A stretch of 64,000 nucleotides of DNA from an uncultured Clostridia bacterium (GTDB lineage: Bacteria > Bacillota > Clostridia > Christensenellales > Borkfalkiaceae): the NCBI GenBank assembly GCA_947624965.1, contig CANQMN010000002.1, positions 62,001 to 126,000 of the forward strand, in the 5' to 3' direction. The notes below the pieces were generated by a model. It was given only the letters and a program-made list of their open reading frames with translations, did not search any database and was not told the DNA's origin. Positions 472 to 63,322 of this stretch are shown in pieces (positions within the stretch are counted from its first letter, which is position 1; each line of letters begins with the position of its first letter). The translations under genes and the position numbers were made by a program.

Positions 472-490
472 AGTACTATGTCAGACATAA
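472..490 (+). repeat. Dispersed repeat copy 1 (core AGTACTATGTCAGACATAA)
   Basis: This is an exact copy of the 19-base core found six times in the window. It lies between the divergent padR and ykvI-like genes, 7 bases upstream of the padR -35 box. It contains the palindrome TATGTC-A-GACATA. A small hairpin, TTTGTC-AATA-GACAAA (458-473), abuts it on the left. Confidence 0.85.
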
Positions 491-549
491 AAAGTAAAAA
501 AATTTCCGATTTTTTCATAATTATGTCAATTTTCCCGTAAATAAGGGAG

Positions 550-1698
550 ATGGGGATTTTCAAAACGGTATTCTTGATCGTCGGAACGAGCATCGGCGCG
601 GGATTTTTGTCGGGGGCGGAGCTCGTCCGCTTTTTCCGCACGGGGTCGTACTTTTTGCCCGTGCTCTGTTCCGCCGCCGAATATTTCGCGTTGAGCGCAC
701 TGCTCCTTGCCCTCGGGAGACGCCACGGGGGATATCGCGGCGCGACGGACGCGCTCTTCGGCAGGGCGGCGCCCGCCGTGCGGGGCGCGCTCCTTCTCTG
801 CGCCTTCGTGCCCTGCGCGGGGATGCTTGCGGGTTTGGATGCGCTCGCGCCGCATTTCAGCCCGCTCCTCTCCTGCGCCGGACTGCTTTTCGTCTGCCTT
901 GCGCTTTCGAGGGGCATGAAGGGGATCGCCGCGCTCAACGCCGCGCTCGTCCCCGTTTTGCTCGCGTTCGTGTTTTTTTTCACGCGGGGCGAAAAGAACT
1001 TTTTCCTGCCGACGGTCCCAAACGGGCTCGGCGGGTTCGCGGGCGGCGCGGTGTACGCGGGGATGAACGTCTTTTTCGCCGCGCCCGTGTTTTTGGAAGC
1101 GGGGAAGGACGTCTGCCATGTCGCGGCTTCTTCGCTGGGCGCCGCGCTCGTCATCGCGCTCTCCGCGCTGTGTATCCTCGGGATCGTCTTTCGGGAGGAC
1201 GCGCTCGACGCCGAGCTTCCCTTTCTGTACGCGTTGCACGGCGAAAGGAAGCTTTTCTCCCTTGCGGTCGCGCTCGCCATTCTCACGTCGCTCGCCTCGT
1301 CGCTCTATCCGCTCCTCTCCGCCTGCGACAGATTTCCGCGCGGCAAAAAGTACGCCGCAAAGGGCTTCGTGCTCTCTGCGGCGTTTGCGCTCTCCCGCTT
1401 CGGTTTGGGCGGGATCGTGCGGATCTTTTATCCGATCGTCGGCGTGTTGGGGCTGATCTTTTCAGCTCTCTGCGTTCTTGACGAGTATCTTTTCCAGAAG
1501 GACCACAAGAAAATACATTCCCGCGGCGAGCAGGCACAAAACGACGGTCGCGCTCATCACGAGGTCGAGTTTGAACACTTGCCCGCCGTACACGATGAGA
1601 TAGCCGAGCCCCGCCCGCGAAACGATATACTCTCCCATGATAGAGCCGATCCACGCCATTCCCACGTTGACTTTGAGCATGGAAATGAAGGAGGATAG
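550..1698 (+). CDS. YkvI-like multi-pass membrane protein
   Basis: The 382-residue frame begins with VGTSIGAGFLSGAELVRFF, the glycine-rich first helix typical of the YkvI family (a branch of the amino acid permease-like superfamily; B. subtilis YkvI is uncharacterised). About eight to ten hydrophobic helices follow, up to residue 310 (LGLIFSALCVLDEYLFQ). The last 70 or so residues are hydrophilic, His-rich and antisense to the convergent permease gene, so they are probably not conserved; the overlap is 237 bases. An in-frame stop at 538-540 forces the start at or after ATG 550. The only SD-like sequence, AAGGGAG, runs directly into that ATG. Substrate unknown. Confidence 0.7.
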   Translation: MGIFKTVFLIVGTSIGAGFLSGAELVRFFRTGSYFLPVLCSAAEYFALSALLLALGRRHGGYRGATDALFGRAAPAVRGALLLCAFVPCAGMLAGLDALAPHFSPLLSCAGLLFVCLALSRGMKGIAALNAALVPVLLAFVFFFTRGEKNFFLPTVPNGLGGFAGGAVYAGMNVFFAAPVFLEAGKDVCHVAASSLGAALVIALSALCILGIVFREDALDAELPFLYALHGERKLFSLAVALAILTSLASSLYPLLSACDRFPRGKKYAAKGFVLSAAFALSRFGLGGIVRIFYPIVGVLGLIFSALCVLDEYLFQKDHKKIHSRGEQAQNDGRAHHEVEFEHLPAVHDEIAEPRPRNDILSHDRADPRHSHVDFEHGNEGG

Positions 1699-2271
1699 GG
1701 AGGAAGGGAGCACGAGTTTGCGCAAGATCTGCATCTTGCTCGCGCCCATGGAGCGGAGGAGCAAGATCTTGTTGGTGTCCGTGGCGATGAACGCCGTCAG
1801 CATGTGCATGATCGCCACGATGAGCCCGACGAGTACCGTCATGAACACGATCGCCTCGCTGCCCGTTCCGAACCAGATGATGATGAGGGGACCGAGCGCG
1901 ATCTTGGGCAGCGCGTTGAGCACGACGATATAGGGTTCGAGCACCCTGCGGAGGGTGTCGCTCCACCAGAGCGCGAGCGCGACGGTACACCCGAGCACGA
2001 CGGCGATGAGAAATCCGACCAGCGTTTCGGCGAGCGTGATCCCGATGTGATAGAAGAGGGAACCGTCGTCGTAGAGACCTTTCAGCGTCGTAAAGATGCG
2101 GGAGGGGGAGCTCGTGAGGAAGGGGTCCGCCCAGCCGAGCGCGGTTACCGCCTCCCAGATGCCGAGGACGAGCGCGAGCAGTCCGATGCGCAAGATCCAC
2201 ACGACGACGAGCTTTCTCTTCCGTTTGCGGAGATATTGCGCATGCTCCGCGGTACAGTTGGGTTTTTTCAT
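1462..2271 (-). CDS. ABC importer permease, SsuC/TauC type
   Basis: This 269-residue membrane protein has about six helices and belongs to the BPD_transp_1 permeases of nitrate/sulfonate/taurine/thiamine-precursor importers. The EAA-type loop that contacts the ATPase reads LLLRSMGASKMQILRKLVLP, and the typical C-terminal EYIVSRAGLGYLI segment is present. ATG 2271 was chosen over an upstream ATG at 2289: GGAGGG lies 10 bases before it, and it overlaps the ATPase stop (ATGA), indicating translational coupling. It is the third gene of the operon (binding protein, ATPase, permease). Its 3' part overlaps the tail of the convergent YkvI-like frame. Confidence 0.9.
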   Translation of the reverse strand: MKKPNCTAEHAQYLRKRKRKLVVVWILRIGLLALVLGIWEAVTALGWADPFLTSSPSRIFTTLKGLYDDGSLFYHIGITLAETLVGFLIAVVLGCTVALALWWSDTLRRVLEPYIVVLNALPKIALGPLIIIWFGTGSEAIVFMTVLVGLIVAIMHMLTAFIATDTNKILLLRSMGASKMQILRKLVLPSSLSSFISMLKVNVGMAWIGSIMGEYIVSRAGLGYLIVYGGQVFKLDLVMSATVVLCLLAAGMYFLVVLLEKILVKNAES

Positions 2272-9573: not shown

Positions 9574-11058
9574 ATGAGAGGATCGCAGACAAATGTCATG
9601 AAATTGCGGCGGAAAGTATTCGTGGAGATCGCTCGCGCGGCGTACGGGACGGAAAACCTGAACGACGCGATCGAAGCCATTCCCTACCGCATCACGCCCA
9701 CGGAAAAGCCCCGCTACCGCGAAAGCGTTTACCGCGAGCGGGCGATCGCGGCGGAGCGCGTTCGGCTCGCCATGGGGATGTCCCTCAACCCGCAGGACAG
9801 ACCTGCGCACATAACGAACGGACTGTCCGCAAGCAACATCTCGGAAAAATATTACGAGCCGCCGCTCATGCAGGTCATTCCCTCGGCATGCGAGAAGTGC
9901 AGGGACAACGTTTACGAGGTCGTCTCCTGCCGCCGCTGCGTCGCGCGGTATTGCGTCTCCGTCTGCCCGACGGGCGCGGTCTCGGTGGAAGAGGAGAGCG
10001 GAAAGGCGAAGATCGACGGACAAAAGTGCGTCAAATGCGGAAAATGCAGGGCGGCTTGCCCGTATAGCTCCATCGTGCGGTTGGTCCGTCCCTGCGCGGA
10101 GGCGTGCGGCGTGAACGCGATCGCGAGCGACGGGCTCGGGCGCGCCGTCATCGATATCGCGCGTTGCGTCGCCTGCGGGCAGTGCATGGTACACTGTCCG
10201 TTCGGGGCGATCGCGGATAAATCGCAGATCTTTCAGCTCATCCGCGCGCTCGGCGAAGGGGATGAGATCGTCGCCGAAATCGCGCCCGCCGCGGCGGGAC
10301 AGTTCGGGGAAAACGCGACGCTCGGTCAGCTCGCCGCCGCGCTCGCGGAATTGGGGTTTTGCGGCGTATACGAGGTGGCGCGCGGGGCGGACGAGAGCGC
10401 CGTCGCGGAGGCGCGCGAATATGCCGAAAAGGTCGCGACGGGCGCGCAGCCATACCTTCTCACTGCCTGCTGTCCCTCTTGGAGCATGCTCGCGAAGCGC
10501 CGCTCCGCGGGGCAATACGTCGGGCTCTCCGCCGCGCTCACGCCCATGGCGGCGACCGCCCGCGCGATCAAGCGGGAGAGACCGCATGCGCGCGTCGTCT
10601 TTATCGGTCCGTGCGCCGCGAAGAAGTTGGAAGCGATGCGGGAGAGCGTGCGCGGCGACGTGGATTTTGTAATTACGTTTGAAGAACTCGCGGCGATCTT
10701 CGAGGCGAAAAACGTGCGCGTCGAAGCGTGCGGCGAACTGCCGCTCGCAAACGAGGCGACCGCGGCGGGAAGGGGATACGGCGCGGCGGGCGGCGTCGCG
10801 GGCGCGGTGGAGGCGTGCGTCCGCGCGCTCTATCCCGCGGTCGAAGTATGCATCCGCCGCGCGGAAGGGCTCGCCGATTGCGGAAAGGCGCTTGCGCTCG
10901 CAAAAACGGGGAAATCGGACGGCTGTCTCATCGAAGGAATGGCGTGCCCGGGCGGGTGCGCGGGCGGCGCGGGCGTCAATCTTCCCGTCGAAAGGGGAAT
11001 TGCCGCCGTAAAAAATTTTGCCGCCCATTCGGAGAAAAAGTTGCCGAAAGCACAATAA
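9574..11058 (+). CDS. Ferredoxin-domain [FeFe] hydrogenase, group B-like
   Basis: The 494-residue protein is predicted to evolve H2 from reduced ferredoxin. Several ferredoxin-type Cys motifs occupy residues 109-215 (CEKCRDNVYEVVSC, CVKCGKCRAACP, CVACGQCMVHCP). The H-cluster motifs follow: L1 TACCPSW (about 297), L2 GPCAAKKLE (about 345) and L3 EGMACPGGCAGG (about 454). Cluster-ligand cysteines are all present, but L2 has Gly where group A enzymes have Met (MPC), and L1 has TA instead of TS; this fits the poorly characterised group B. GGAG precedes ATG 9574. No separate promoter fits between the adhE terminator and the start, so expression may need read-through or a promoter inside adhE. Confidence 0.88.
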   Translation: MRGSQTNVMKLRRKVFVEIARAAYGTENLNDAIEAIPYRITPTEKPRYRESVYRERAIAAERVRLAMGMSLNPQDRPAHITNGLSASNISEKYYEPPLMQVIPSACEKCRDNVYEVVSCRRCVARYCVSVCPTGAVSVEEESGKAKIDGQKCVKCGKCRAACPYSSIVRLVRPCAEACGVNAIASDGLGRAVIDIARCVACGQCMVHCPFGAIADKSQIFQLIRALGEGDEIVAEIAPAAAGQFGENATLGQLAAALAELGFCGVYEVARGADESAVAEAREYAEKVATGAQPYLLTACCPSWSMLAKRRSAGQYVGLSAALTPMAATARAIKRERPHARVVFIGPCAAKKLEAMRESVRGDVDFVITFEELAAIFEAKNVRVEACGELPLANEATAAGRGYGAAGGVAGAVEACVRALYPAVEVCIRRAEGLADCGKALALAKTGKSDGCLIEGMACPGGCAGGAGVNLPVERGIAAVKNFAAHSEKKLPKAQ

Positions 11059-11090
11059 AACCGCTTGAATTTTCAAATTCAAGCGGTTTG
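11058..11090. terminator. Hairpin between convergent hydrogenase and rplI genes
   Basis: A perfect inverted repeat with arms AAACCGCTTGAATTT (11058-11072) and its complement ending at 11090; it starts at the hydrogenase stop codon. On the minus strand it is followed by TTTTATT, so it probably ends rplI transcription as well. Dispersed repeat copy 2 begins 4 bases later. Confidence 0.6.
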
Positions 11091-11093
11091 CGA

Positions 11094-11112
11094 AGTACTA
11101 TGTCAGATATAA
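11094..11112 (+). repeat. Dispersed repeat copy 2
   Basis: AGTACTATGTCAGATATAA, one mismatch to the consensus core, directly after the convergent terminator hairpin and 11 bases before the rplI stop codon. Confidence 0.85.
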
Positions 11113-11123
11113 ATCATCATTTT

Positions 11124-11567
11124 TTACAGCGGAACGACGTTGACGACGATCTTTGCCGTCGCTCCCTCCATAAAGCGGACCTCCGCCTCGAAGGCGCCGA
11201 CCGTCTTGATGGTCTCCTTCGTCGTGATCTTTTTCTTGTCGACTTCATACCCCTGTTCGGCGAGCGCGGCGGCAATGTTCGCCGTCGTTACCGAGCCGAA
11301 CACCTTTCCGTTTTCGCCCGCGCGGATGCGGACGGTGATCTGTTTCCCGTTGAGTTCGGCGGCGCGCTCTTTGAGCGCCTTTTCCGTCTCCGCCTTGTGG
11401 TAGGCGTCCGCCGTGCGCTTTTGCTCGATCTCGTTGATCCCGCTGCTCGTCGCGATCTCCGCGAGCCCCCGCTTTAAGAGGTAGTTCTTCGCGTAGCCGT
11501 CCGAGACGTCGAGGATATCGCCCCGCTTGCCGCTGCCTTTCACATCCTGTTTGAGAATGACTTTCAT
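11124..11567 (-). CDS. rplI: 50S ribosomal protein L9
   Basis: This 147-residue protein binds 23S rRNA and projects from the 50S subunit. It has the L9 N-terminal domain (MKVILKQDVKGSGKRGDILDV, then GYAKNYLLKRGLA), the long connecting helix and the C-terminal domain (GKVFGSVTTANIAAAL). The length is normal. The start follows AAGGAGAAAAACC and its own sigma-A promoter. It stands alone here rather than with dnaB or the rpsF-ssb-rpsR genes that accompany it in many bacteria. Confidence 0.97.
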   Translation of the reverse strand: MKVILKQDVKGSGKRGDILDVSDGYAKNYLLKRGLAEIATSSGINEIEQKRTADAYHKAETEKALKERAAELNGKQITVRIRAGENGKVFGSVTTANIAAALAEQGYEVDKKKITTKETIKTVGAFEAEVRFMEGATAKIVVNVVPL

Positions 11568-28689: not shown

Positions 28690-28694
28690 AAGAT

Positions 28695-28717
28695 GCCCGC
28701 CGAACGCGGGTTTCTTT
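28695..28717 (+). terminator. Terminator after flavodoxin
   Basis: Short hairpin CCCGC-CGAAC-GCGGG (28696-28710) followed by TTTCTTT. It is directly followed by dispersed repeat copy 3. Confidence 0.6.
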
Positions 28718-28737
28718 GTATTTTTGAAGTTTTGCAA

Positions 28738-28756
28738 AGTATTATGTCTGACATAA
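28738..28756 (+). repeat. Dispersed repeat copy 3, containing a start codon
   Basis: AGTATTATGTCTGACATAA (two mismatches to the core). It supplies the ATG and first residues (MSDI) of the following methyltransferase and lies where a ribosome binding site would be expected. The bases before it read in frame as EVLQS, like the copies inside spoIIIAE and dxs. Confidence 0.85.
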
Positions 28757-32879: not shown

Positions 32880-32909
32880 ATTTTTCACGAAAGAAAGACG
32901 GAAAGCATT

Positions 32910-34169: not shown

Positions 34170-34173
34170 CGGT

Positions 34174-34716: not shown

Positions 34717-34717
34717 T

Positions 34718-36525: not shown

Positions 36526-36604
36526 GCGTTCGCTACGGAAAACGCAGTTTTACGACGTGTACAAAGTACATAGGAGAGAATGAACCGAAGGACGGAACTT
36601 CGTT

Positions 36605-37687: not shown

Positions 37688-37701
37688 GGGGAGGAGACAG
37701 C

Positions 37702-38439
37702 ATGAAATTGTATGCCGTAACGCATCGGGCGGTAGCCTTTCTTCCGGAAGGGCGGACGCCGATCGGTGTCGGTCCGGATCGCGCCATCGCGGGCGTGGAG
37801 ACGTACGACGATACGGGGGACAATATCCACGAAAAGAACCCGAACTATTGCGAGCTCACCGCGCTGTATTGGATCTGGAAAAACGAAGACGAGGACGTGA
37901 TCGGGCTCGAACACTATCGCAGATTTTTCTGCAAAAAGCACACCGTTTTCCGCTGTCGGCAGCTTTCCCAAGCCGATATTGCGAAGATCCTGAAAAAGCA
38001 CGACTGCATCACGACGCGGTATTTCCGCTTTTTGCCGAGCGTATACGGCTATTACGCCGCAAAGCACGACGCGCGCGATCTCGACAGCTGCCGTGCCGCG
38101 ATCGAAAAACTTTGCCCGGAGTATCTTGCGGATTTCGACGCGGTCATGAAGCAGAAGAAGGCGGTCATGTTCAACATGCTCGTGATGCCCAAGGCTCTCA
38201 TTTCGGACTATTGCGCATGGCTGTTCCCGATCTTGGAAGAGGTGGAAAAATCGGTGGATCTGGAAGCGAAGGACGATTATCAAAAACGCGTCTACGGCTT
38301 TCTGTCCGAACGGCTCTTCAACGTTTGGCTGCACCGAAAATCGCTCAACGTATATCGCGCTCCCGTATTTTATCCCGACGAGCTCCCGATCCGGAGTTTC
38401 CTCACGGGGTTGGCAAAGAGGATTTTGAGGCGTCCATGA
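37702..38439 (+). CDS. DUF4422-domain putative glycosyltransferase
   Basis: The 245-residue protein begins KLYAVTHRAVAFLPEG and contains KNPNYCELTALYWIWKN and DVIGLEHYRRFF, signatures of DUF4422, found in capsule and exopolysaccharide loci and thought to transfer sugars. GGAGGAG precedes ATG 37702. Its stop overlaps the ATG of glf, so the two are coupled; a galactofuranosyltransferase role is possible but is inference only. Confidence 0.85.
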   Translation: MKLYAVTHRAVAFLPEGRTPIGVGPDRAIAGVETYDDTGDNIHEKNPNYCELTALYWIWKNEDEDVIGLEHYRRFFCKKHTVFRCRQLSQADIAKILKKHDCITTRYFRFLPSVYGYYAAKHDARDLDSCRAAIEKLCPEYLADFDAVMKQKKAVMFNMLVMPKALISDYCAWLFPILEEVEKSVDLEAKDDYQKRVYGFLSERLFNVWLHRKSLNVYRAPVFYPDELPIRSFLTGLAKRILRRP

Positions 38440-39539
38440 AAAAGTTCGATTATCTCATCGTAGGAAGCGGGCTCTTCGGCGCGGTGTGCGCGCACGAGCT
38501 CCATAAACGCGGAAAACGCTGTCTCGTGCTGGAAAAGCGCGCGCACATCGGCGGAAATGTGTACACCGAAGAGACGGAGGGTATCAACGTCCATAAGTAC
38601 GGCGCGCACATCTTCCATACTTCGGAGAAGCGCGTGTGGGACTATGTAAACGAATTTGCGGAGTTCAACAATTACGTCAACAGTCCCGTGGCGCGCTATC
38701 ACGGGGAGTGTTACAATCTGCCCTTCAACATGAACACCTTCACGAAGCTGTGGAGCGACGTCTTTACGCCCGCGGAGGCGGAACGCCGCATCGCGGAGGA
38801 GCGCGGCGAGAGTTATACGGCGGAGCCGAAGAACCTCGAAGAACAGGCGATCAACCTCGTCGGCAGAACGATATACGAAAAACTAATTAAGGGATACACC
38901 GAAAAGCAGTGGGGCAAGCCCTGCGACCGACTGCCCGCCTTCATCATCAGACGGCTGCCCGTTCGGTTTACTTTCGACAACAATTATTTCGACGACCGCT
39001 ATCAGGGCATTCCGATCGGCGGCTACACGAAGCTCGTCGAAAAGATGTTGGAAGGCGTGGAAGTCCGTCTCGGTTGCGACTTTACGGAGAAGAGAGAGGA
39101 ATACCTCGCCGCCGCGGACCGAATTATCTACACGGGCGCGATCGACCGCTATTACAATTACCGTTTCGGCGCGCTCGAATATCGCTCCGTCCGTTTTGAA
39201 ACGGAAGTTCTCGATCTGCCGAACTTTCAGGGCAACGCCGTCGTGAATTATACGGCGAGCGACGTCCCGTATACGCGCATCATCGAGCACAAGCACTTTG
39301 AGTTCGGAAAGCAACCCAAAACGGTCATCTCCCGCGAATATTCCTCGGCATGGAACCTCGGGGACGAGCCGTATTATCCCGTCAACGACGAGAAAAACGG
39401 CGCGCTCTACCGAAAATACCGCGCGCTCGCGGACGGCGAGAAGAACGTATTTTTCGGCGGGCGGCTGGGGCAGTACAAATATTACGACATGGACGACGTG
39501 ATTTTGAGCGCGTGGGCGCTTCTCTCGTCTCTGGACTGA
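38436..39539 (+). CDS. glf: UDP-galactopyranose mutase
   Basis: The 367-residue flavoenzyme interconverts UDP-galactopyranose and UDP-galactofuranose. Visible features are the FAD-binding DYLIVGSGLFGAVCAHEL at the N-terminus, EKRAHIGGNVYTEE, KYGAHIFHTSEKRVWDYVN, GYTEKQWGKPCDRLP, the conserved PIGGYTKLVEKML and the C-terminal GGRLGQYKYYDMDDVI. All these segments are standard for Glf. It indicates that the polymer contains galactofuranose. Confidence 0.96.
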   Translation: MKKFDYLIVGSGLFGAVCAHELHKRGKRCLVLEKRAHIGGNVYTEETEGINVHKYGAHIFHTSEKRVWDYVNEFAEFNNYVNSPVARYHGECYNLPFNMNTFTKLWSDVFTPAEAERRIAEERGESYTAEPKNLEEQAINLVGRTIYEKLIKGYTEKQWGKPCDRLPAFIIRRLPVRFTFDNNYFDDRYQGIPIGGYTKLVEKMLEGVEVRLGCDFTEKREEYLAAADRIIYTGAIDRYYNYRFGALEYRSVRFETEVLDLPNFQGNAVVNYTASDVPYTRIIEHKHFEFGKQPKTVISREYSSAWNLGDEPYYPVNDEKNGALYRKYRALADGEKNVFFGGRLGQYKYYDMDDVILSAWALLSSLD

Positions 39540-39542
39540 CGC

Positions 39543-41033
39543 ATGAAGACGGCAAGCATCAAGGTCAATTTCTTTTACAGCGCACTGCACAAGGTGTTGG
39601 CGGTCGTGATCCCGATCGTCATAACGCCTTACCTTGCGCGCGTCCTCGAAGCGGACGGAAACGGTTCGCTCAGCTTTGTCGCCTCTATTTCCTCTTACTT
39701 TATTTTATTTTCCAACCTCGGCATCGAAACGTACGGACAGCGCCTCATCGCAATTCACAGGGACGACAGCGCGTATCTGAAAAAGTGCACGTTGGAGATC
39801 TCTATCCTGCGGCTCACCGTAACCCTCCTCGCGCTGTTTGTCTACGGCGTCTGTTTCGTGAGCCCGCTCAACCCGTCGGATAATCTGTTGTACGCCGTCT
39901 ATGCGTTGCCGATCCTCGCCGTCGCCCTCGATTTCACATGGTTTTTCCAGGGCGTGGAGAACTACCGCGTGCTCGCGATCAGCAATATCATAACGCGGTT
40001 TACATATGTCGCGCTCGTTTTTCTGCTCGTCAAGGGGAAGGGCGATCTGACGACCGCGGCGCTTCTTGCGGCGGGGAACACCATCGTTCCGTTTGCGTTG
40101 AGCATGCCCTTCCTTTACAAATATTTCGGCGGGAAGATAGAGGGGGGGATAAATCCGATCCGCCACCTGAAAGATTGTTTCGTCTACCTGATCCCGACGA
40201 TCGCGATCCAAATTTATACCGTGCTCGACAAGACGATGATCGGCGTCATCACGCATTCCGATTTCGAGAACGGCTATTACGAAGAGGCGGAAAAGCTCAT
40301 CAAAATGCCGCTCACGGTCATCATGACTTTGAATACCATCATACGGGCAAGGATCGCCTACTATTACGGAAACGGGGAAGAGGACAAGATCAAATCGCTC
40401 GTGGAAAAGTCCGCCAATCTTTCGATGATGCTTATCATGCCCATTACATTCGGGTTTGCCGCGGTGATCCCCACGCTCGTGCCCGTTTACTTGGGCGCGG
40501 GATATGAAAAATGCGTTCTCCTGATGTACGCGCTCTTGCCGCTGTTGCCCATCATTACGATCAGCAATCTCTACGGTTCGCATTATTACACGCCGTGCGG
40601 CAAGCAAAAGACGAGCAATATTTTCCTGATCGCGGGCGCGCTGTTCAACGCGGCGTTGAACACGGTCCTCATCTATTTTTGGCAGTCGCTGGGCGCGGCG
40701 ATCGCCTCCGTCTGCGCCGAATTGCTGGTTACGACGCTTTACGCCGTCTTCGCCGCGAAATTCTTTTCCCTTTGGTCCATTGTAAAACTTTCGTGGAAAT
40801 ACTTTCTCGCCTCGGCGATCATGTTCGGCGCGGTGTTTACGATGGAATACTTTTTGCCCGTCGGGATCTGGTATCTTGTCGCGGAGATCGCCGCGGGGGT
40901 CGTGATCTATCCCGTTCTTCTGGCGGCGTTCCGCAGCGAATTTTTCCTTTTCTATACGCGCATGTTCTTCCGCAAGATCTTCCGCAGGAGAAATAAGGAG
41001 AAGAAAGAGGAAGGGGACGCGAAAGATGCGTGA
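39543..41033 (+). CDS. Wzx-type oligosaccharide flippase
   Basis: A 496-residue polytopic protein with about twelve to fourteen helices, of the polysaccharide biosynthesis (MVF/PST) family. It begins ASIKVNFFYSALHKVLAVVIP and has the typical PYLARVLEADGNGSLSF and TWFFQGVENYRVLAISNI segments. It moves the lipid-linked repeat unit across the membrane. The C-terminus is Lys/Glu-rich. It contains a G7 run at 40142-40148, in frame. Three bases separate it from glf. Confidence 0.93.
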   Translation: MKTASIKVNFFYSALHKVLAVVIPIVITPYLARVLEADGNGSLSFVASISSYFILFSNLGIETYGQRLIAIHRDDSAYLKKCTLEISILRLTVTLLALFVYGVCFVSPLNPSDNLLYAVYALPILAVALDFTWFFQGVENYRVLAISNIITRFTYVALVFLLVKGKGDLTTAALLAAGNTIVPFALSMPFLYKYFGGKIEGGINPIRHLKDCFVYLIPTIAIQIYTVLDKTMIGVITHSDFENGYYEEAEKLIKMPLTVIMTLNTIIRARIAYYYGNGEEDKIKSLVEKSANLSMMLIMPITFGFAAVIPTLVPVYLGAGYEKCVLLMYALLPLLPIITISNLYGSHYYTPCGKQKTSNIFLIAGALFNAALNTVLIYFWQSLGAAIASVCAELLVTTLYAVFAAKFFSLWSIVKLSWKYFLASAIMFGAVFTMEYFLPVGIWYLVAEIAAGVVIYPVLLAAFRSEFFLFYTRMFFRKIFRRRNKEKKEEGDAKDA

Positions 41034-41068
41034 GCGCGGCGCGGACGGAACGAATTTACACACGGGGG

Positions 41069-41097
41069 TTGACGAAGCAATAAAAAGTTGTTATAAT
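41069..41097 (+). promoter_or_regulatory. sigma-A promoter of manC operon
   Basis: TTGACG (41069-41074), 17 bases, TATAAT (41092-41097). The GDP-mannose genes can thus be transcribed separately from the polymer assembly genes. Confidence 0.8.
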
Positions 41098-41153
41098 GTC
41101 TTTGTCGATCTCAAAGAAAAAACGAAAATTCTTTTTCGGGAAGTGAGTCGCAT

Positions 41154-42218
41154 ATGAACGTCTATGGCGTAGTGATGGCGGGCGGAGGCGGTACGCGCTT
41201 TTGGCCCTTATCCAGGAACAAGACTCCGAAACAACTCTTGAATTTGAGCGGCAAGGACACGATGGTCAACGAGGCGATCGACCGTCTGCGTCTCGTTACC
41301 GAGCGGGAAAACATCTATGTCGTTACCAATAAAACACAGATAGAAAGTCTGCGCGCGGTGGTGGGTGACAGAGTGGCGGAGGAGAACGTCTTTTCCGAGC
41401 CTGCAATGCGGAATACTTCGGCGTGCATCGGCTACGCGGCGGTCGAACTGTTGAAGCGGCGGGGAGACGGCGTGATGGTCATCGTGCCGTCCGACGCATA
41501 TCTTCGCGACGACGCGCAGTTTGCGGAAAAATTGAATTTCGCGATACAAGCCGCGGAAACGTCGGAAAAGCTGGTAACCATCGGCATCACACCGACCTTT
41601 CCCGCGACGGGGTATGGCTATATCCGCTTTCAAAAATCTGCGGAGCCCGTGAAAAAGGCGCTCCGTTTCGTGGAGAAGCCGAAGAAAAAACTCGCCGAAA
41701 AGTACATCAAGAGCGGCGATTACGTCTGGAACAGCGGGATGTTCATCTGGAAGGTATCCACCATTCTGGAAAAGTTCCGCACGCTCCTGCCCGATATCTA
41801 TGTCGATCTGATGAAGATCTACAACGCGATCGGGACGGCGCACGAGAAGCGCACTATTTCGAGCGTCTATCCCAAAATCAGTTCCATTTCCGTCGATTAC
41901 GGCGTGATGGAGAAATGCAAGGATATTCTCGTCGTCCCGGGAGACTTCGGGTGGAGCGACGTCGGCAGTTGGGACATGCTCGGCGTCCTGCATTCGGTGG
42001 ACGAGTGCGGGAACATCGTCATGGGCGACGGGTTGGCATTGGAGACGCGCAACTCCGTTCTGTATGCCGGGAAGAAGTTCATCGCGACCGTCGGCGTAAA
42101 GGATATGATCATCGTCGATACGGAGGACGCGCTCCTGATCTGTCCGAAATCCCGCGCGCAGGACGTGAAAAAGATCGTGGACGAATTGCGTAATCAGGGA
42201 AGAGAGGACCTGCTCTGA
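41154..42218 (+). CDS. manC: Mannose-1-phosphate guanylyltransferase
   Basis: The 354-residue enzyme makes GDP-mannose from mannose 1-phosphate and GTP. N-terminal GVVMAGGGGTRFWPLSRNKTPKQLL is the nucleotide-binding signature; SEPAMRNTSACIG, VIVPSDAYL, FVEKPKKKLAEKYI and NSGMFIWK are the other family blocks; PGDFGWSDVGSWD is near the C-terminus. There is no fused isomerase domain, so this is the short form; a separate manA lies two genes downstream. The stop overlaps the next ATG. Confidence 0.95.
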   Translation: MNVYGVVMAGGGGTRFWPLSRNKTPKQLLNLSGKDTMVNEAIDRLRLVTERENIYVVTNKTQIESLRAVVGDRVAEENVFSEPAMRNTSACIGYAAVELLKRRGDGVMVIVPSDAYLRDDAQFAEKLNFAIQAAETSEKLVTIGITPTFPATGYGYIRFQKSAEPVKKALRFVEKPKKKLAEKYIKSGDYVWNSGMFIWKVSTILEKFRTLLPDIYVDLMKIYNAIGTAHEKRTISSVYPKISSISVDYGVMEKCKDILVVPGDFGWSDVGSWDMLGVLHSVDECGNIVMGDGLALETRNSVLYAGKKFIATVGVKDMIIVDTEDALLICPKSRAQDVKKIVDELRNQGREDLL

Positions 42219-43987
42219 TGAATTACCGCGAGGAATACCGCAGGTGGTGCGAGAGCGAGCTCTTTGACGAAGCGACGAGAGCGGAGTGCCGCGCCCTGCG
42301 GGACGAGAGGGAGATCGAGGACAGATTTTATAAGACGCTTACCTTCGGGACGGGCGGGCTTCGCGGCGAGCTCGGCGCGGGCACGAACCGCATGAACGAG
42401 TACACTGTGGGGAAGGCAACGCAGGGGCTTGCCGATCGCATCAACGCCTGCGGGCAGGGGGGGAGCGTCGTCATCGCCTACGACAGCAGAAGAATGTCTG
42501 CGGAGTTTGCGCTGTCCACCGCCTGCATTTTTGCGGCAAACGGCGTAAAGGCGTATCTCTTCCGCGAACTTCGTCCGACGCCGATGCTCTCTTTTGCGGT
42601 GCGTTTTTTGCATGCAACGGCGGGCGTCGTGATCACCGCGAGCCACAATCCGCCGCAATATAACGGTTATAAAGTGTATTGGTCGGACGGGGGGCAGATC
42701 GTTCCGCCGTACGACGAGGAGATCATCGCCTGCGTGAACGCCGTGGACGATTATTCCGCCGTCCGTCGGATCGGCGAGGAAGAGGCGTGCCGCCGCGGGC
42801 TCCTCGTCTATCTCGGCAATGAGGTGGACGACGCCTATCATGCGGCGCTTCGGTCGCTCTCATGCGATGCCGCGAGCCGGGGCGGGCGCGCGCGGGACTT
42901 GAAGATCGTCTATACGCCGCTCAACGGAACGGGCAATTTGCCCGTCCGCAGGGCGCTCCGCGAGGCGGGCTTTTCCGATGTGTTCGTCGTGAAGGAGCAG
43001 GAGGCGCCGGACGGGAACTTTCCCACGCTCGCGCTCCCGAACCCCGAGGACCCGCGTGCGTTCGATCTTGCGCTCCGTCTCGCCGCGGAAGTGGGGGCGG
43101 ACCTCGTGCTCGCCACCGATCCCGACGCGGACAGGCTCGGCTTGTACGCGCGCGACGGGAAGAGCGGGGAATACAAGCCGTTTACGGGCAACATGAGCGG
43201 GATCCTTCTCGCCGACTATTTGCTCTCCCGAAGGGCGGAGCAGGGGCTCCTTCCCGCCTGCCGTGCAGACGGCGCGCTCGTTACGACCGTCGTCTCCTCC
43301 AAAATGGCGCATGCGCTCGCCGCGGCGTACGGGCTGACCGTCATCGAAACGCTCACGGGGTTCAAATATATCGGCGAACAGATCAAGCGTTTCGGCGAGG
43401 CGCGCGAAAGAAACGGCGGTCGGCTCGACCATACCAAGGGCGCCTTTGCGTTCGAGTTCGGCTTCGAGGAGAGCTACGGCTGTCTTGCGGGGACGTATGC
43501 GCGCGACAAGGACGCGGTGGGCGCGGCGCTCCTGCTCTGCGAAGCCGCCGCGTATTACAGGGACAAGGGGCTCACCCTTTGGGACCGTATGTTACAGCTC
43601 TATGAGAGGTACGGGTACTATCGGGAATCGCTCGCTTCGTTCTCCTACGGCGGGGCGGACGGTGCGGCGCGCATCCGCGCGCTCATGCAGTCGCTGCGTG
43701 CGGCGGAGCCGCGCGCGCTCGGCGGGGAGACCGTCGTCGCCGTGCGCGACTATCTCTGCGGAACGCGCAAGGACTTGCGCACGGGAAAAACGCAGCCCGT
43801 CGGCTTGCCCCGAAGCAACGTCCTGTATTTCGAGTTGGAACACGGCGGCTGGTGCTGTGCGCGTCCCTCTGGCACGGAGCCGAAGATAAAATTTTATTTC
43901 GGCGCGAAGGGGAAGGATTTCTCCGAAGCGGATACCAAGGCGGAAAGCATTCGCAAGGCGCTTGTCGCCCTTGCAAATGAGGAATGA
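42218..43987 (+). CDS. Phosphoglucomutase/phosphomannomutase
   Basis: The 589-residue alpha-D-phosphohexomutase interconverts hexose 1- and 6-phosphates. The phosphoserine loop is VITASHNPPQYNGYK (Ser142), the metal loop ATDPDADRLGLYA, the sugar loop FEFGFEESYGC and the phosphate loop RPSGTEPKIKFYF. The N-terminal 45-residue extension and overall length fit the PgcA-type enzymes of Firmicutes. Its place between manC and manA suggests it supplies mannose 1-phosphate here. Start overlaps the manC stop (TGATG). Confidence 0.93.
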   Translation: MNYREEYRRWCESELFDEATRAECRALRDEREIEDRFYKTLTFGTGGLRGELGAGTNRMNEYTVGKATQGLADRINACGQGGSVVIAYDSRRMSAEFALSTACIFAANGVKAYLFRELRPTPMLSFAVRFLHATAGVVITASHNPPQYNGYKVYWSDGGQIVPPYDEEIIACVNAVDDYSAVRRIGEEEACRRGLLVYLGNEVDDAYHAALRSLSCDAASRGGRARDLKIVYTPLNGTGNLPVRRALREAGFSDVFVVKEQEAPDGNFPTLALPNPEDPRAFDLALRLAAEVGADLVLATDPDADRLGLYARDGKSGEYKPFTGNMSGILLADYLLSRRAEQGLLPACRADGALVTTVVSSKMAHALAAAYGLTVIETLTGFKYIGEQIKRFGEARERNGGRLDHTKGAFAFEFGFEESYGCLAGTYARDKDAVGAALLLCEAAAYYRDKGLTLWDRMLQLYERYGYYRESLASFSYGGADGAARIRALMQSLRAAEPRALGGETVVAVRDYLCGTRKDLRTGKTQPVGLPRSNVLYFELEHGGWCCARPSGTEPKIKFYFGAKGKDFSEADTKAESIRKALVALANEE

Positions 43988-43992
43988 GCGGT

Positions 43993-44946
43993 ATGGTAAA
44001 GTTGAGATCGGCATACAAAGATTATCTTTGGGGCGGCACGAAGATCCGCGACGTGTTGAAAAAGGACGTCGGCGGCTACGACTGCGTGGCGGAAAGTTGG
44101 GAGATCTCCACCCATCCCGCGGGGAAAAGCGTCATCGCGGAAGGGGAATATGCGGGCAAAACGCTCGACGAGTATTTCTCTGCCGTCGGCTGGTCCTGTT
44201 TGGGCGCGTACGGCGAAAGCAACCGCCGCCTGCCCGTGCTCGTCAAATATATCGATGCGAGCGCGCCGCTCTCCATTCAGGTGCATCCCGACGATCGCTA
44301 TGCGCATTCCCATACCGACGACGACGGAAAATGCGAGATCTGGTTCATTCTCGGCGCGGAGAAGGGTGCGCACATCTATCTCGGCTTCAACAGGGACGTC
44401 AGCGAAGAGGAGGTCCGCGGGCGCATCCGTGAAGGCACGCTGACGGAAATCCTCAATAAAATTCCCGTCAAAAAGGGAGAAGCGTACTATATCCCGGCGG
44501 GGACGGTCCACGCGATCGGCGCGGGCTGTCTCATCTGCGAGATCCAGCAGGCGTCCGATCTGACGTACCGGCTCTACGACTATGCGAGAAGGGGAAAGGA
44601 CGGGAAGTTGCGCGAACTGCATCTGGACGACGCGCTCGCCGTGCTCGATTATTCCATGCGCAAAGTGCCCGATGCGCAGGAGCGCGACATCGTGAGCGCG
44701 GGCGAATATCTTAACGACATGTTGCCCGAAAATGCGACCTGCGAAATTTTCCACTATCGCGCCGACGGGGAGTTTTCCGTCGTTTCGCCCCGCGATCACG
44801 CCATTTTCGCATTGATCTACGGCGGCCGCGGACGTATTTCCGACGAGGAGAGAACGCGCCCCGCCGCCGTCGGCGACACGTGGTTCCATCTCGGAAAGAC
44901 CTTGAAGATCGACGGGAAATGCAAGGCGCTCGTCATCAGAATTTAA
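43993..44946 (+). CDS. manA: Mannose-6-phosphate isomerase, class I
   Basis: The 317-residue zinc enzyme converts fructose 6-phosphate to mannose 6-phosphate, feeding GDP-mannose synthesis. It has the cupin zinc-site segment SIQVHPDDRYAHSH, the EIWFILGAEKG strand, the YYIPAGTVHAIGAGCLICEIQQ block and a C-terminal cupin half. It is of the short bacterial type. ATG 43993, with GAGGA 10 bases upstream, fits the usual N-terminus; ATG 43984 overlaps the previous stop (ATGA) and is also possible. A terminator follows directly. Confidence 0.93.
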   Translation: MVKLRSAYKDYLWGGTKIRDVLKKDVGGYDCVAESWEISTHPAGKSVIAEGEYAGKTLDEYFSAVGWSCLGAYGESNRRLPVLVKYIDASAPLSIQVHPDDRYAHSHTDDDGKCEIWFILGAEKGAHIYLGFNRDVSEEEVRGRIREGTLTEILNKIPVKKGEAYYIPAGTVHAIGAGCLICEIQQASDLTYRLYDYARRGKDGKLRELHLDDALAVLDYSMRKVPDAQERDIVSAGEYLNDMLPENATCEIFHYRADGEFSVVSPRDHAIFALIYGGRGRISDEERTRPAAVGDTWFHLGKTLKIDGKCKALVIRI

Positions 44947-49696: not shown

Positions 49697-50904
49697 CGTT
49701 TCCCGTTCGGACATCGCGCACAAAAAAGCGGAGAAAGTTCCTTCTGTTTTTGCTTCCGCTCGTGTTTTTGCTCGTTTTTCCCGCCGTGAAAGTTGTCGCC
49801 TATGCGGCGTCTTTCGAGGAAGAGGCGGCGTCTGCGGAATTGCACGAGAACATCAAGGAACTTTTGGACGCGCTGGATACGCAGGAACTGCAAGAATATC
49901 TCGATTCGCTCGCGGAGATGAAGGGGATCTCCGTGCGGGAGCGGCTCGAAGCGCTGATAAACGGCGATCTTTCGCTCGACTATTCCTCCCTGTGGCAAGC
50001 CGCGCTCGACGTTTTATGGCGGGAAGGGCGCACAATGCTGCCCGCTTTTGCCGTAATTCTCGCCGTCGCGCTCCTGTGCGGCATCCTTAACTCTGCAAAA
50101 AATGGATTTTTGCAGAGTACTATGACAGACATAATTCACTTTGTCGGCTACATTGCCGTGGGCGCGGTGGTGTTGGCATGTCTTATTTCGGTACTGGAAG
50201 AGGGCTTTTCCGCCGTTTCGCACATGCAAAGGCAAATGCAACTCGTGTATCCGCTCCTTCTCACGTTGATGGCGGGGAGCGGCGGCGCGGTCTCCGTCGG
50301 GATCTACCGTCCCGCCGTTGCGTTCATGAGCGGCTCCGTCTGCGAGCTGTTCACCGCGGTCGTTTTGCCGACGTGCGTCGTCGTCATCGTGCTCGCCTTC
50401 GTCGGAAATCTCTCCGCCGACGTGCGCACGGAAAAGCTCGGCGAACTCTTCAAGAGCGTCTCCAAATGGCTGGTCGGATTGACGCTCGGGCTTTTCAGCG
50501 TCTTTCTCACGGTGCAGGGGATCGCCTCGGCGCAGTACGACGGGATCTCCCTCCGCGCCGCAAAGTACGTAGTCTCCGGTTCCGTGCCCGTCGTGGGGGG
50601 ATTTCTTTCGGGCGGGCTCGAACTCGTCCTCGCGGGGAGCGCGCTCATCAAGAATGCGCTCGGCTCCTTTGCCGTGTTTCTTCTCTTCGGCACGCTCCTG
50701 CGCCCCGTTCTGCTCTTTGCCGCGTTTCAGCTCTTTCTCCGCCTTGCCGCGGCGGCGACCGAGCCGGTCGGCGGAAAAATTTCCGCCTTTTTGTCCCGTC
50801 TTGCCGCGGATACGGGATATTTTCTCGCCGCCGTTCTCTGCATCGCTTTTCTGTATTTCCTCACGCTCGTCCTTCTCGTCTGTTCTTCGGGGGTGATATT
50901 TTAA
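49693..50904 (+). CDS. spoIIIAE: Stage III sporulation protein AE, carrying an in-frame dispersed repeat
   Basis: The 403-residue polytopic channel component has a signal-like N-terminus (FLLFLLPLVFLLVFPAVKVVAYA), an acidic extracytoplasmic stretch with repeated LDAL/EYLDSL motifs, and about seven helices. From 50116 to 50134, dispersed repeat copy 4 is read in frame as STMTDI, within NGFLQSTMTDIIHF, where other SpoIIIAE proteins have a linker between helices of about the same length. The codons there (AGT, ACT, ATA, ATT) are atypical for this gene. The stop overlaps the spoIIIAF start. Confidence 0.92.
   Translation: MTFPVRTSRTKKRRKFLLFLLPLVFLLVFPAVKVVAYAASFEEEAASAELHENIKELLDALDTQELQEYLDSLAEMKGISVRERLEALINGDLSLDYSSLWQAALDVLWREGRTMLPAFAVILAVALLCGILNSAKNGFLQSTMTDIIHFVGYIAVGAVVLACLISVLEEGFSAVSHMQRQMQLVYPLLLTLMAGSGGAVSVGIYRPAVAFMSGSVCELFTAVVLPTCVVVIVLAFVGNLSADVRTEKLGELFKSVSKWLVGLTLGLFSVFLTVQGIASAQYDGISLRAAKYVVSGSVPVVGGFLSGGLELVLAGSALIKNALGSFAVFLLFGTLLRPVLLFAAFQLFLRLAAAATEPVGGKISAFLSRLAADTGYFLAAVLCIAFLYFLTLVLLVCSSGVIF
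50085..50134 (+). repeat. Dispersed repeat copy 4 inside spoIIIAE
   Basis: The core AGTACTATGACAGACATAA (50116-50134, one mismatch) is preceded by a perfect inverted repeat with arms CTCTGCAAAAA and TTTTTGCAGAG around a short loop. The element is read in the same phase as the copy in dxs. Confidence 0.9.
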
Positions 50905-54879: not shown

Positions 54880-56601
54880 ATGCGAAACATTACACGGGAG
54901 GAACTCAAACGTGCCTCCGTTCCACAATTAAAGACGCTGTGCGACGTACTGCGGGAGGAGATCTTGAACACGGTCGCCGTCTGCGGGGGGCATCTGTCCT
55001 CCAATCTCGGCGCGGTGGAACTCACCGTCGCTCTGCACCGCGTTTTTTCTTTTCCGCAGGATAAGATCGTTTTCGACGTCGGTCATCAGTGCTATACGCA
55101 CAAATTGCTCTCCGGGCGCGCGGAGCGCTTCTCCACGCTTCGGCGCGAGGGGGGGCTCTCCGGATTTCCCAAACGGACGGAGAGCGAATACGATTGCTAC
55201 GACACGGGGCATGCGGGAACTTCTCTCTCCGCCGCGCTCGGGATCGCCAAGGCGCGCGACTTAAAGGGCGAAAATTACGAGGTGATCGCCTTCATCGGCG
55301 ACGGTTCGTTCAACAACGGGCTCATTTACGAGGCGCTCAACAGTCTGCGCATCCTGAATACGAGGATCCTCATCGTGCTCAACGACAACGGAATGTCCAT
55401 TTCTCCCACCGTCGGCGGCACGCACGACATTCTGAACGAGATGAAGGGGGAGGCGCTCCCTTCGGAGGACGTGCGCCTCTTCGAGCGGTACGGGCTCGCC
55501 TACATGGGCGTATACAACGGCAACGACCTCGGGGAGACGATCGCGGCGCTCGAACAGGCGAAGGAAAAACTGCGCGAAACGAGCGTACTTTTGCACGTCG
55601 TAACGCGAAAGGGGCAGGGACATCCCTTCTGCGAGAGCGCGCCCTTGGAGACGCACGGCGTCAACGGCGAATCCGCGCACGACGCGGAGAGCGCGGAATA
55701 TTCCGCCGCGCTGGGCGAGGAACTGTGCTCGCTCGCCCGGACGGACAGCCGCATCGTCGCCGTGACCGCCGCGATGACGGACAGTTTGGGACTGCGCCGC
55801 TTTTTCGACGAATATCCCGCGCGCGCCTTCGACGTCGGCATCTGCGAGGAGCACGCGTCCGTGCTGTGCGCTTCGCTCGCGTCCGCGGGCATGAAGCCGT
55901 ATTACGCCATCTATTCCACCTTTTTACAGCGCGCCTTCGATGAGATCGTCCACGACGTCTGCGGGCAAAACCTGCCTGTAACGTTCTGCATCGACCGCGC
56001 GGGCATCACGGGAAGGGACGGGGAGACCCATCAGGGCGTATTCGATCTGTCCTATCTCTCGTTCATTCCAAACCTCGCCGTCGCGATCCCGAAGGACATC
56101 GGAGAACTGCGCGCAATGCTCCGCATGAGCGTGGATTATCCCGCGCCGCTCGCCATCCGCTACCCGCGGGAAGGGCATGAAGGCGTGATCCCGACGATTG
56201 AAATCGGAAAATTTGAAATTTTACATAGTACTACGTCAGACATAATTGTCCTTGCGGCGGGGGAACGTTGCATTTCGCTGGCGGAAAAAGTCCGCCTCAG
56301 GCTCTCGGCGCAGGGCAAGGATCTCACGCTCGTCAACGCACGCTTTTTGAAGCCGCTCGACGAAGAACTGCTCGCTTCCCGTCGGGAAAAGTACGTTCTC
56401 ACGATCGAGGACAACGCGCTTTGCGGCGGGCTCGGCGACGCGGTGAGCCGTTTTTACCGCAACAGCGGCAAAGAGATCTATTGCTTCGGCTACGACGACG
56501 CGTTTATTCCGCACGGGGACGTTTGTTCGCTCGCCGCCGAGCACGGCGTGAGCGAAGAAAAAATTCTTGCGGCGATCGAGGCGCTGTATGCGCGCGGATA
56601 A
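54880..56601 (+). CDS. dxs: 1-deoxy-D-xylulose-5-phosphate synthase, carrying an in-frame dispersed repeat
   Basis: The 573-residue thiamine-diphosphate enzyme is the entry to the MEP isoprenoid pathway. Visible are GGHLSSNLGAVELTVALH, FDVGHQCYTHKLLSGR, the ThDP motif GDGSFNNGLIYEALN to LNDNGMS, the EEHASV Glu and CIDRAGITGRDGETHQG. It is somewhat shorter than the usual 620 residues. At 56227-56245 dispersed repeat copy 5 encodes STTSDI inside EILHSTTSDIIVL, replacing the usual linker before the third domain without changing its length much; the codons AGT, ACT, TCA, ATA are foreign to the gene. Confidence 0.94.
   Translation: MRNITREELKRASVPQLKTLCDVLREEILNTVAVCGGHLSSNLGAVELTVALHRVFSFPQDKIVFDVGHQCYTHKLLSGRAERFSTLRREGGLSGFPKRTESEYDCYDTGHAGTSLSAALGIAKARDLKGENYEVIAFIGDGSFNNGLIYEALNSLRILNTRILIVLNDNGMSISPTVGGTHDILNEMKGEALPSEDVRLFERYGLAYMGVYNGNDLGETIAALEQAKEKLRETSVLLHVVTRKGQGHPFCESAPLETHGVNGESAHDAESAEYSAALGEELCSLARTDSRIVAVTAAMTDSLGLRRFFDEYPARAFDVGICEEHASVLCASLASAGMKPYYAIYSTFLQRAFDEIVHDVCGQNLPVTFCIDRAGITGRDGETHQGVFDLSYLSFIPNLAVAIPKDIGELRAMLRMSVDYPAPLAIRYPREGHEGVIPTIEIGKFEILHSTTSDIIVLAAGERCISLAEKVRLRLSAQGKDLTLVNARFLKPLDEELLASRREKYVLTIEDNALCGGLGDAVSRFYRNSGKEIYCFGYDDAFIPHGDVCSLAAEHGVSEEKILAAIEALYARG
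56209..56245 (+). repeat. Dispersed repeat copy 5 inside dxs
   Basis: Core AGTACTACGTCAGACATAA (56227-56245, one mismatch), preceded by the dyad AAAATTT-G-AAATTTT. Read in frame; codon 450 starts at the AGT. Confidence 0.9.
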
Positions 56602-62131: not shown

Positions 62132-62136
62132 ACGGC

Positions 62137-63291
62137 ATGAAACTCATGTCTATCGGCGCCGCGATCGCGGCGGGTTGTATCATCCTTACGGGCGTCTCGG
62201 CGCCCGTGCGCGTCCGCGCGGAGGAAGAACTCGCGCCTTCCTGCAAGGCGGCTTACCTCTGCGACGCGGAGAGCGGCGTTTGCGTCTATGAAAAAGAGGC
62301 GGAAAAGCGGTTGCCCATCGCAAGCATGTGCAAGATCATGACGCTGCTTCTCTCGCTGGAAGCCGCGGACAGCGGCGCGCTCTCCTACGACGAGCAGATC
62401 GCGGTGAGCGAAAACGCCGCGGGAATGGGCGGTTCGCAGGTCTTTTTGGGCGCGGATCTCACCTACGGCGCGGAACAACTGATGAAGAGCATCGCCGTCT
62501 GTTCCGCGAACGATTCCTGCGTCGCGATGGCGGAACGCATCGCCGGGAGCGAAGCGGCGTTCGTCGATTGCATGAACGCCCGCGCGAAGGAGCTCGGCGC
62601 GGAAAACACGCTGTTCGCAAACTGCACGGGGCTTCCGAAAGAGACGCAGTATTCCTGCGCAAAGGACGTCTCCCTGATGTTGCGGGAGCTCATCAAACAT
62701 AAAAAATATTACGAGTTTTCAAAGATCTGGCTGGAAGATTTCGTCCATCCCGACGGGCGGACGACGCAGATGACGAATACCAACAAGCTCATCCGCCATT
62801 ATAAGGGGTGCGACGGCGGCAAGACGGGATTCACGAACGAGGCGGGATTTTGCCTTGCGGCGACGGCGCAGCGCGGCGACACGCGGCTCATCTCCGTCGT
62901 CATCGGCTCGGATTCGTCCAAGGCGCGCTTCCACGACGTCTCCCAAATGCTCGACCACGCCTTTGCCAACTACGAAACAAAGACCGTGCTCGCCGCAAAT
63001 ACGCCGCTCGGGGAAAAGTATCCCGTGAAGGGGAGCCGCGTCGCGGAGATCGCCCTGTGCGCGGCGCGTCCGCTCAAATGCTTTGTCCGCCGCGGAAACG
63101 AGGGGAACTGCACGCTCACGATAAATTGCCGCGCGCTCGTTGCGCCGATCGCGGCGGGCGACGTTGTGGGGGAGGCGACGCTCTTTGTCGACGGCGTCGA
63201 AGCGGGAAAGACCGAACTCATCGCCGCGGAAGCCGCGCCCGAATATACGTGGTGGGACGCCTACCAAGAGAGCGCGCAAAATTGGAATTAA
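62137..63291 (+). CDS. dacF: D-alanyl-D-alanine carboxypeptidase, DacF type
   Basis: The 384-residue secreted S11-family penicillin-binding protein trims peptidoglycan peptides, in spore formers often the cortex. Signal peptide (SIGAAIAAGCIILTGVSAPVRVRA). The catalytic SXXK is Ser63-Met-Cys-Lys66, SXN is Ser123-Ala-Asn125 and KTG is at 229-231 (GGKTGFTNEAG). A C-terminal beta domain and an amphipathic end follow. There is no SD, and a forespore-like -10 sits 5 bases before ATG 62137. Confidence 0.93.
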   Translation: MKLMSIGAAIAAGCIILTGVSAPVRVRAEEELAPSCKAAYLCDAESGVCVYEKEAEKRLPIASMCKIMTLLLSLEAADSGALSYDEQIAVSENAAGMGGSQVFLGADLTYGAEQLMKSIAVCSANDSCVAMAERIAGSEAAFVDCMNARAKELGAENTLFANCTGLPKETQYSCAKDVSLMLRELIKHKKYYEFSKIWLEDFVHPDGRTTQMTNTNKLIRHYKGCDGGKTGFTNEAGFCLAATAQRGDTRLISVVIGSDSSKARFHDVSQMLDHAFANYETKTVLAANTPLGEKYPVKGSRVAEIALCAARPLKCFVRRGNEGNCTLTINCRALVAPIAAGDVVGEATLFVDGVEAGKTELIAAEAAPEYTWWDAYQESAQNWN

Positions 63292-63303
63292 GCAGTTTAT
63301 CAT

Positions 63304-63322
63304 AGTACTATGTATGACGTAA
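63304..63322 (+). repeat. Dispersed repeat copy 6
   Basis: AGTACTATGTATGACGTAA, three mismatches to the core, the most diverged copy. Its right half forms the left arm of the dacF terminator hairpin. Confidence 0.7.

Follow-up and report, generated by a model that had tools for sequence, protein, structure and literature searches.

A phased palindromic site around dif in uncultured Clostridia, and a PadR-type protein with predicted membrane helices as its candidate reader

The stretch analysed here, referred to as the window, comprises 64,000 nucleotides from an uncultured Clostridia bacterium (positions 62001-126000 of contig C2; genome G000, 1.79 Mb in 34 contigs) and carries six copies of a 19-base palindromic core, all in the same orientation. 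We find that the 19 bases are the centre of a longer unit of about 185 bp, in which A/T tracts recur every ~10.4 bp, symmetrically about the dyad, to about ±93 bp, and that in this genome as well as in a relative (G216) the sites are confined to the region around dif. We give an even chance to the reading that each copy forms the core of a dedicated site which marks the terminus domain round dif and is read by a membrane-tethering protein, here called PadR-TM, whose binding we infer. The arrangement suggests that these bacteria manage the terminal zone of their chromosome in a manner not described so far; no such system is described in the titles and abstracts covered by our literature search, most subscription journals lying outside that coverage.

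A search with the 19-base core pattern, allowing up to three mismatches and using the reversed pattern as control, recovers all six copies that a first-pass annotation had reported on the plus strand of the window, and none on its minus strand. The annotation had also excluded a chance origin, in agreement with a mean of 0.00 copies in 100 dinucleotide-preserving shuffles of the window. It had offered four candidates for the repeat (a Rickettsia-like palindromic element, an uptake sequence, a polar chromosome motif or a widespread operator) and had suggested counting the motif genome-wide and plotting its strand against replication. Genome-wide, there are 19 matches, 11 forward and 8 reverse, a few of which are the two strands of one palindrome, and none with the control; all 19 fall on three of the 34 contigs (C2, C7 and C13, together 317 kb). 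The GC skew of C2 is positive up to ~136 kb and negative beyond, and that of C7 and C13 is negative. Copies lie on the plus strand before the skew switch and on the minus strand after it as well as on C7 and C13, with weaker matches occurring on both strands; in a weight-matrix scan (see below) the better strand of each palindrome was kept. In the relative G357, the genes of C7 continue after those of the right end of C2, while C13 is placed less well.

Close to the skew switch C2 encodes a XerS-like recombinase (133194-134249; 204 bits with the NCBIfam XerS model, under its cut-off of 267). About 130 bp upstream of this gene, at C2:134381, lies an inverted repeat, TTCG(C/T)AAAA-N6-TTTT(A/G)CGAA, which was detected from k-mers upstream of xerS and is present with up to three mismatches in 26 of the 30 xerS loci examined. 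We take it as a probable dif-like site and call it dif in the following; a search of C2, C7 and C13 with consensus sites of classical dif found none. As the final plus-strand copy lies at C2:125304 and the initial minus-strand copy at C2:134606, the strand of the sites flips at dif. Less than 8 kb from dif we also noted, by eye, scpA-/scpB-like and lexA-like genes (C2:126845-128342 and 131052-131657), and a second Xer-like tyrosine recombinase is encoded on motif-bearing contig C13 (54443-55402). LexA was considered as a reader of the sites and rejected: its gene is near dif, but there is no site in its promoter.

The motif was found in all 36 other genomes of the genus that were searched, with 10-48 matches in each (0-2 with the reversed control). 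All genomes compared are metagenome-assembled, and the sites of related genomes are not independent of one another. In the relative G216, all 14 matches fall within 270 kb of one 823-kb contig (positions 548-818 kb), with dif at 592 kb and without any match in the first 548 kb of this contig or on the other contigs. In G061 and G348 most matches lie on the contig with dif, and 3 of 11 and 5 of 15, respectively, on contigs without placement.

In order to describe the site beyond its core, the odd palindrome TATGTC-N-GACATA, we built a weight matrix from 142 sites, which spans 19 bp to the left and 10 bp to the right of the dyad. Scanning 15 regions in 13 genomes yielded 113 sites (reversed control, 2). 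The symmetrised A/T profile around the palindrome centre of these sites peaks at ~17, 26.5, 37, 48, 58, 68.5, 79 and 88 bp, and its spectral power at 10.4 bp is 0.79, whereas the highest value among 300 random sets is 0.025. The signal is strongest if centred on the dyad, extends through the shells of 21-43, 43-64 and 64-93 bp but not into that of 93-124 bp, and both its power and phase are alike for the 44 sites within genes and the 69 outside. Scored individually, 106 of the 113 sites exceed the null mean and 69 exceed a z of 1.64. The outer pattern is not an effect of selection by the matrix, since the latter covers only the innermost 19 and 10 bp. The T-rich similarity that had been noticed to the left of the core is thus real, but forms part of a larger phased pattern on both sides. 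As the A/T tracts are spaced one helical turn apart and symmetric about the palindrome, the DNA of the site is probably curved or wrapped over ~17 turns. The copy at C2:134606, 225 bp from dif, shows no phasing (z -0.61) and, lacking phased flanks, may serve as an operator instead of a terminus site. It is an example of a double-palindrome form of the core that many genomes of the genus (loci L209-L218) carry near dif, with xerS on one side and an amylase-like gene on the other.

Symmetric, periodic flanks are also known from DNA gyrase. In E. coli, the 130-bp gyrase motif shows periodic (10.75 bp) changes in GC content 17-63 bp to both sides, which are likened to nucleosomes (PMC6379681), and gyrases of other species show a periodicity of 10-11 bp too (PMC12324340). 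The copies could accordingly be strong gyrase sites near the terminus, with gyrase wrapping the phased flanks, acting at the palindrome and easing fork meeting or decatenation. We consider this improbable: the phasing reaches ~93 bp per side versus 66 bp in the gyrase motif, the core is far more specific than that motif, its letters, compared by eye in both half-base registers, disagree with the preferences known for the cleavage site (-4G/+8C, -2A/+6T, +1G/+4C), and E. coli gyrase sites are under-represented in Ter (PMC6379681).

Within the window, the first of the six copies adjoins the promoter of the gene for PadR-TM, and the remaining five are spread over diverse contexts. Listed by window position, the features are:

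1..410, minus strand: 5' portion of the gene for the candidate reader, PadR-TM; the gene extends left of the window to C2:60623
472..490, plus strand: core copy 1, no mismatches, located in a divergent promoter region; full phased element ~390-576, dyad 483; phasing z 1.61
11094..11112, plus strand: core copy 2, 1 mismatch, between convergent genes; full element ~11012-11198; phasing z 2.47
28738..28756, plus strand: core copy 3, 2 mismatches, intergenic; full element ~28656-28842; phasing z 1.31
50116..50134, plus strand: core copy 4, 1 mismatch, inside spoIIIAE, with codon-level conservation; full element ~50034-50220; phasing z 1.73
56227..56245, plus strand: core copy 5, 1 mismatch, inside dxs; full element ~56145-56331; phasing z 1.40
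63304..63322, plus strand: core copy 6, 3 mismatches, 13 bp past a stop codon and ~9 kb before dif; full element ~63222-63408; phasing z 0.90, lowest among the six copies

These placements, which rest on gene calls made with a codon-usage script, bear out the promoter region (472) and the location inside two genes (50116 and 56227) named in the first-pass annotation; its assignment of the copy at 28738 to a start codon could not be confirmed, as it varies with the start chosen for the reading frame. Between copies 3 and 4, ~13 kb of glycosyltransferase- or polysaccharide-like genes (window 32325-44946) matched none of the five further terminus regions in the comparison and may represent a variable island.

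The copy inside spoIIIAE allowed us to assess how the sites are maintained. We found 56 spoIIIAE orthologs in 61 genomes of the genus and examined the best 30 of them, of which 29 keep the site with up to three mismatches. At conserved amino acids, the share of the modal codon is 0.90 in the site (6 codons) as compared to 0.61 elsewhere in the gene (202 codons), and the top eight of 285 seven-codon windows begin at codons 135-142, which correspond to the site and its left A/T tracts. The only ortholog of the 30 without the site (L269) encodes nearly the same residues with different codons and shows no gap. The spoIIIAE copy is thus held by selection at the DNA level, which disfavours a mobile element. 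Repeated palindromes, some within genes and some clustered, would be expected of a mobile palindromic element or an uptake sequence; we nevertheless regard the probability of either as close to negligible. At the orthologous spoIIIAE positions, the only ones considered in this respect, there is no insertion and the single loss is of the synonymous type; the sites are confined to the terminus; only a single viral contig was matched; and genomes of the genus have 10-48 matches each, clustered in one region where placement was possible, which argues against uptake sequences in particular. The first-pass annotation had held that conservation by descent without empty alleles would speak against a mobile or polar element. 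Such conservation counts against mobility, but it does not count against polarity.

A polar chromosome motif is in fact the closest of the four original candidates, as the sites are confined to the terminus in G000 and conserved by descent, and on either arm most of them point towards dif. Polarity itself is harder to assess. Across the 13 genomes, 95 of the 113 sites lie on the leading strand and 18 on the opposite one, and genes share this bias (1282 of 1511 on the leading strand), with no difference between sites and genes in Fisher's test (p 0.79 for the 113 sites; p 0.37 for a set of 64 sites from fewer genomes). Because genes are equally biased, the bulk strand bias of the sites proves nothing. 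In contexts where the neighbouring genes are neutral or opposed, 23 of 25 sites follow replication; grouped by orthology, these 25 contexts reduce to about six positions, with the direction of replication followed at five. The strand bias is therefore inseparable from that of the genes except at about six loci.

It is in this light that a third kind of fork trap has to be weighed, in which polar Ter sites would let forks pass towards dif while outgoing forks would be halted by a protein bound there, be it PadR-TM or a different one. Such a trap would fit the arrangement, since dif lies between the innermost opposed sites in G000 and most sites are on the leading strand, including those in gene-neutral or gene-opposed contexts. 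It would also fit the site upstream of the PadR-TM gene, given that in both E. coli and B. subtilis the gene of the terminator protein has a ter site in its promoter (PMC10331603). Fork arrest at these sites is, however, putative, and we judge a fork trap unlikely, albeit the most serious of the alternatives. Besides the equal bias of the genes, the few independent positions and the 18 sites pointing the opposite way, no match to the RTP family (PF02334) was found in G000 at E ≤ 1, while the B. subtilis control scored over the cut-off. RTP is also absent among the matches listed in fold searches for the candidate reader, a result that carries no weight. Furthermore, a blocking face is not obvious, because the core is palindromic and the flanks are symmetric.

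The likely reader of the sites, judging by its sequence and the location of its gene, is PadR-TM. We take its start codon to be the ATG at window position 410, based on an alignment with orthologs; the gene is transcribed divergently from core copy 1, which lies 62 bp upstream of this start codon, near promoter-like TTGACA (464-459) and TATAAT (441-436) elements read by eye on the minus strand. The protein carries a PadR winged-helix domain (PF03551, 70.9 bits with a cut-off of 27), with 1xma, LmrR and 5x11, all PadR structures, as structural relatives, followed by a long helix or linker and four C-terminal membrane helices. Four helices are predicted for most PadR-TM loci, with fewer where the locus is cut, and also for the proteins of families f3 and f6 and genus g27. 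The structure model of the full protein has a mean pLDDT of 61 and a pTM of 0.24, so that only its layout is usable. Among the best 30 loci, the motif occurs upstream of the PadR-TM gene in 23 of the 25 that belong to family f1, and its best strand is always reverse to the gene. An upstream site alone is no proof of autoregulation, since the orthologous positions of other sites are also often conserved.

An ordinary PadR regulon whose operators lie near the terminus by happenstance would account for the PadR-type half-site letters in the core and for the site upstream of the PadR-TM gene. We hold it to be very improbable, given that the genes downstream are unrelated housekeeping genes, that 44 of the 113 sites lie inside genes and others past stop codons, and that the sites are confined to one chromosome region. 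As to the earlier idea of a widespread operator, a regulon is not supported, as the sites are found within unrelated housekeeping genes as well as between and behind them, while one copy does resemble an operator of the candidate reader's own gene.

Another candidate for the reader was the product of the reading frame at 550-1698, which was rejected as it has no Pfam match, is rich in hydrophobic segments by eye and matches membrane-like frames. This frame, which runs divergently to the PadR-TM gene, encodes a conserved protein of membrane-like character that resembles YkvI by eye; matches to its last 80 residues are widespread in other genomes and probably stem from the opposite strand of another gene.

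Matches to PadR-TM at E ≤ 1e-6, ordinary PadR proteins included, occur in 347 of 396 genomes of the order. In those listed with PadR-TM and xerS on one contig, the two genes are at most 0.5 kb apart in 37 of 62, at most 2.5 kb in 52 and at most 10 kb in 59. Among the matches listed for 216 genomes of the class, long frames (>400 aa) occur only within the order (G000, G061 and G127), and PadR frames outside it measure 97-234 aa.

The proximity to xerS raises the possibility that the copies are terminus sites for SMC unloading or loop anchoring, read by a Xer recombinase or by PadR-TM. The clustering of the sites at the terminus beside xerS would agree with this, and in B. subtilis XerD unloads SMC at the terminus (PMC12322038). 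XerS is, however, an unlikely reader, because the arms of dif beside xerS are unlike the core and because XerS, present in 352 of 396 genomes overall, is not limited to families that carry the motif. On this evidence we assign sites of this kind a low probability.

Among the 396 genomes of the order, those with at least five matches belong to families f1, f18, f19, f20, f30 and f32, and the remaining genomes have 0-4; inside f1, counts of 0-2 were obtained for genera g27 and g31. The exact palindrome TATGTC-N-GACATA is spread similarly, with up to 18 copies per genome in f32, a few single matches in f6 and others scattered. Enrichment of a degenerate form of the motif was seen in g27 (G366; 21 versus 6 in the reversed control), and in f32 the palindrome core lies near dif or the skew switch with another flank, as judged from 100 kb of two genomes. 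A de novo motif search in the termini of f3 and f6 gave nothing clear, although the same method missed the known motif in G061. Carriers among the matches listed are Clostridia metagenome-assembled genomes including Ca. Gallimonas merdigallinarum and Ca. Borkfalkia faecavium; NCBI places Ca. Borkfalkia in Christensenellales. One viral contig (L286, 47 kb) has a single core copy at 2221-2239. Intergenic clusters of 2-5 core palindromes in mixed orientation occur at L049:7391-7517, L088:5600-5730 and L143:5508-5573, the first two of which look like the same place in two species, arranged differently.

Returning to the reading of a dedicated terminus site, dimers of PadR-TM would bind the palindrome, and, owing to the phased tracts, the DNA would be able to run along a single face of a patch of PadR-TM bound to the membrane. 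In this way the terminus domain would be kept at the membrane, presumably where the cell divides, until the work of XerS and decatenation is complete. PadR-TM would in addition regulate its own gene via the motif in its promoter region, and the polarity towards dif may add direction. In a more specific form, which we put forward tentatively, PadR-TM would act as a one-protein tether that reads the ~185-bp sites as nucleosome-like curved DNA with one membrane contact per turn and holds the ~300-kb terminus round dif and XerS, its specificity drifting between families while its gene stays beside xerS.

Several observations weigh against a terminus site read by PadR-TM. In most other genomes the matches are spread over several contigs without placement relative to dif, and the phasing could stem from another wrapping protein such as gyrase. 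In f32 none of the five loci (among the best 30) has the motif upstream of the PadR-TM gene. The core has ATGT/ACAT letters like PadR operators, but PadR operators are inverted repeats with a spacer of ~8-10, and the spacer in the core is 3. Lastly, f3 and other families have PadR-TM beside xerS while this motif is missing; in such families, either the motif has changed or the link to PadR is wrong. If the reading is true, a large clade of gut Clostridia would possess an independent terminus system whose candidate reader is itself a membrane protein, and a sequence-specific bridge between terminus and membrane made of one protein would be a new kind of chromosome organiser. Whether and how a bacterium can hold its terminus at the membrane becomes open to a direct test, for which a single protein domain and a single DNA site suffice, and the site offers a terminus landmark for metagenome-assembled genomes.

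To our knowledge, terminus systems consisting of a site and its protein are known in few bacterial groups, namely as Tus/Ter, RTP/Ter, MatP/matS and XerD. One of the closest is MatP/matS of E. coli and its relatives, where a palindrome of ~13 bp, present in some 20 copies, is confined to the terminus and bound by a dedicated protein. The sites described here are likewise palindromes confined to the terminus domain in comparable number; they differ in sequence, strand bias, 185 bp of phased DNA and a candidate PadR-type reader with membrane helices of its own. MatP has further been reported to limit SMC action in the terminus domain. The guide motifs of DNA translocases, KOPS and SRS, are short and occur in many copies over the whole chromosome, unlike the 19 matches in G000, which are all near the terminus. 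With PadR regulators such as LmrR and B. subtilis PadR, PadR-TM shares the winged-helix domain and its presumed site the ATGT/ACAT letters, while its long middle part, its four membrane helices and the short half-site spacer set it apart. The Tus/Ter and RTP/Ter systems resemble the present one in having sites opposed across dif and a site upstream of the (candidate) reader's gene, and RTP binds as a dimer to dimer sites (PMC10331603). The differences are that the RTP family is unmatched in G000 and that the core here is palindromic, with symmetric flanks. The XerD sites of B. subtilis are alike in clustering at the terminus of a Bacillota chromosome with a Xer gene nearby, the difference being that the dif arms here are unlike the core. 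Strong gyrase sites (PMC6379681) share symmetric flanks phased near 10.4-10.75 bp, and in comparison the site described here is longer (~185 bp) and built around a specific core of 13-19 bp.

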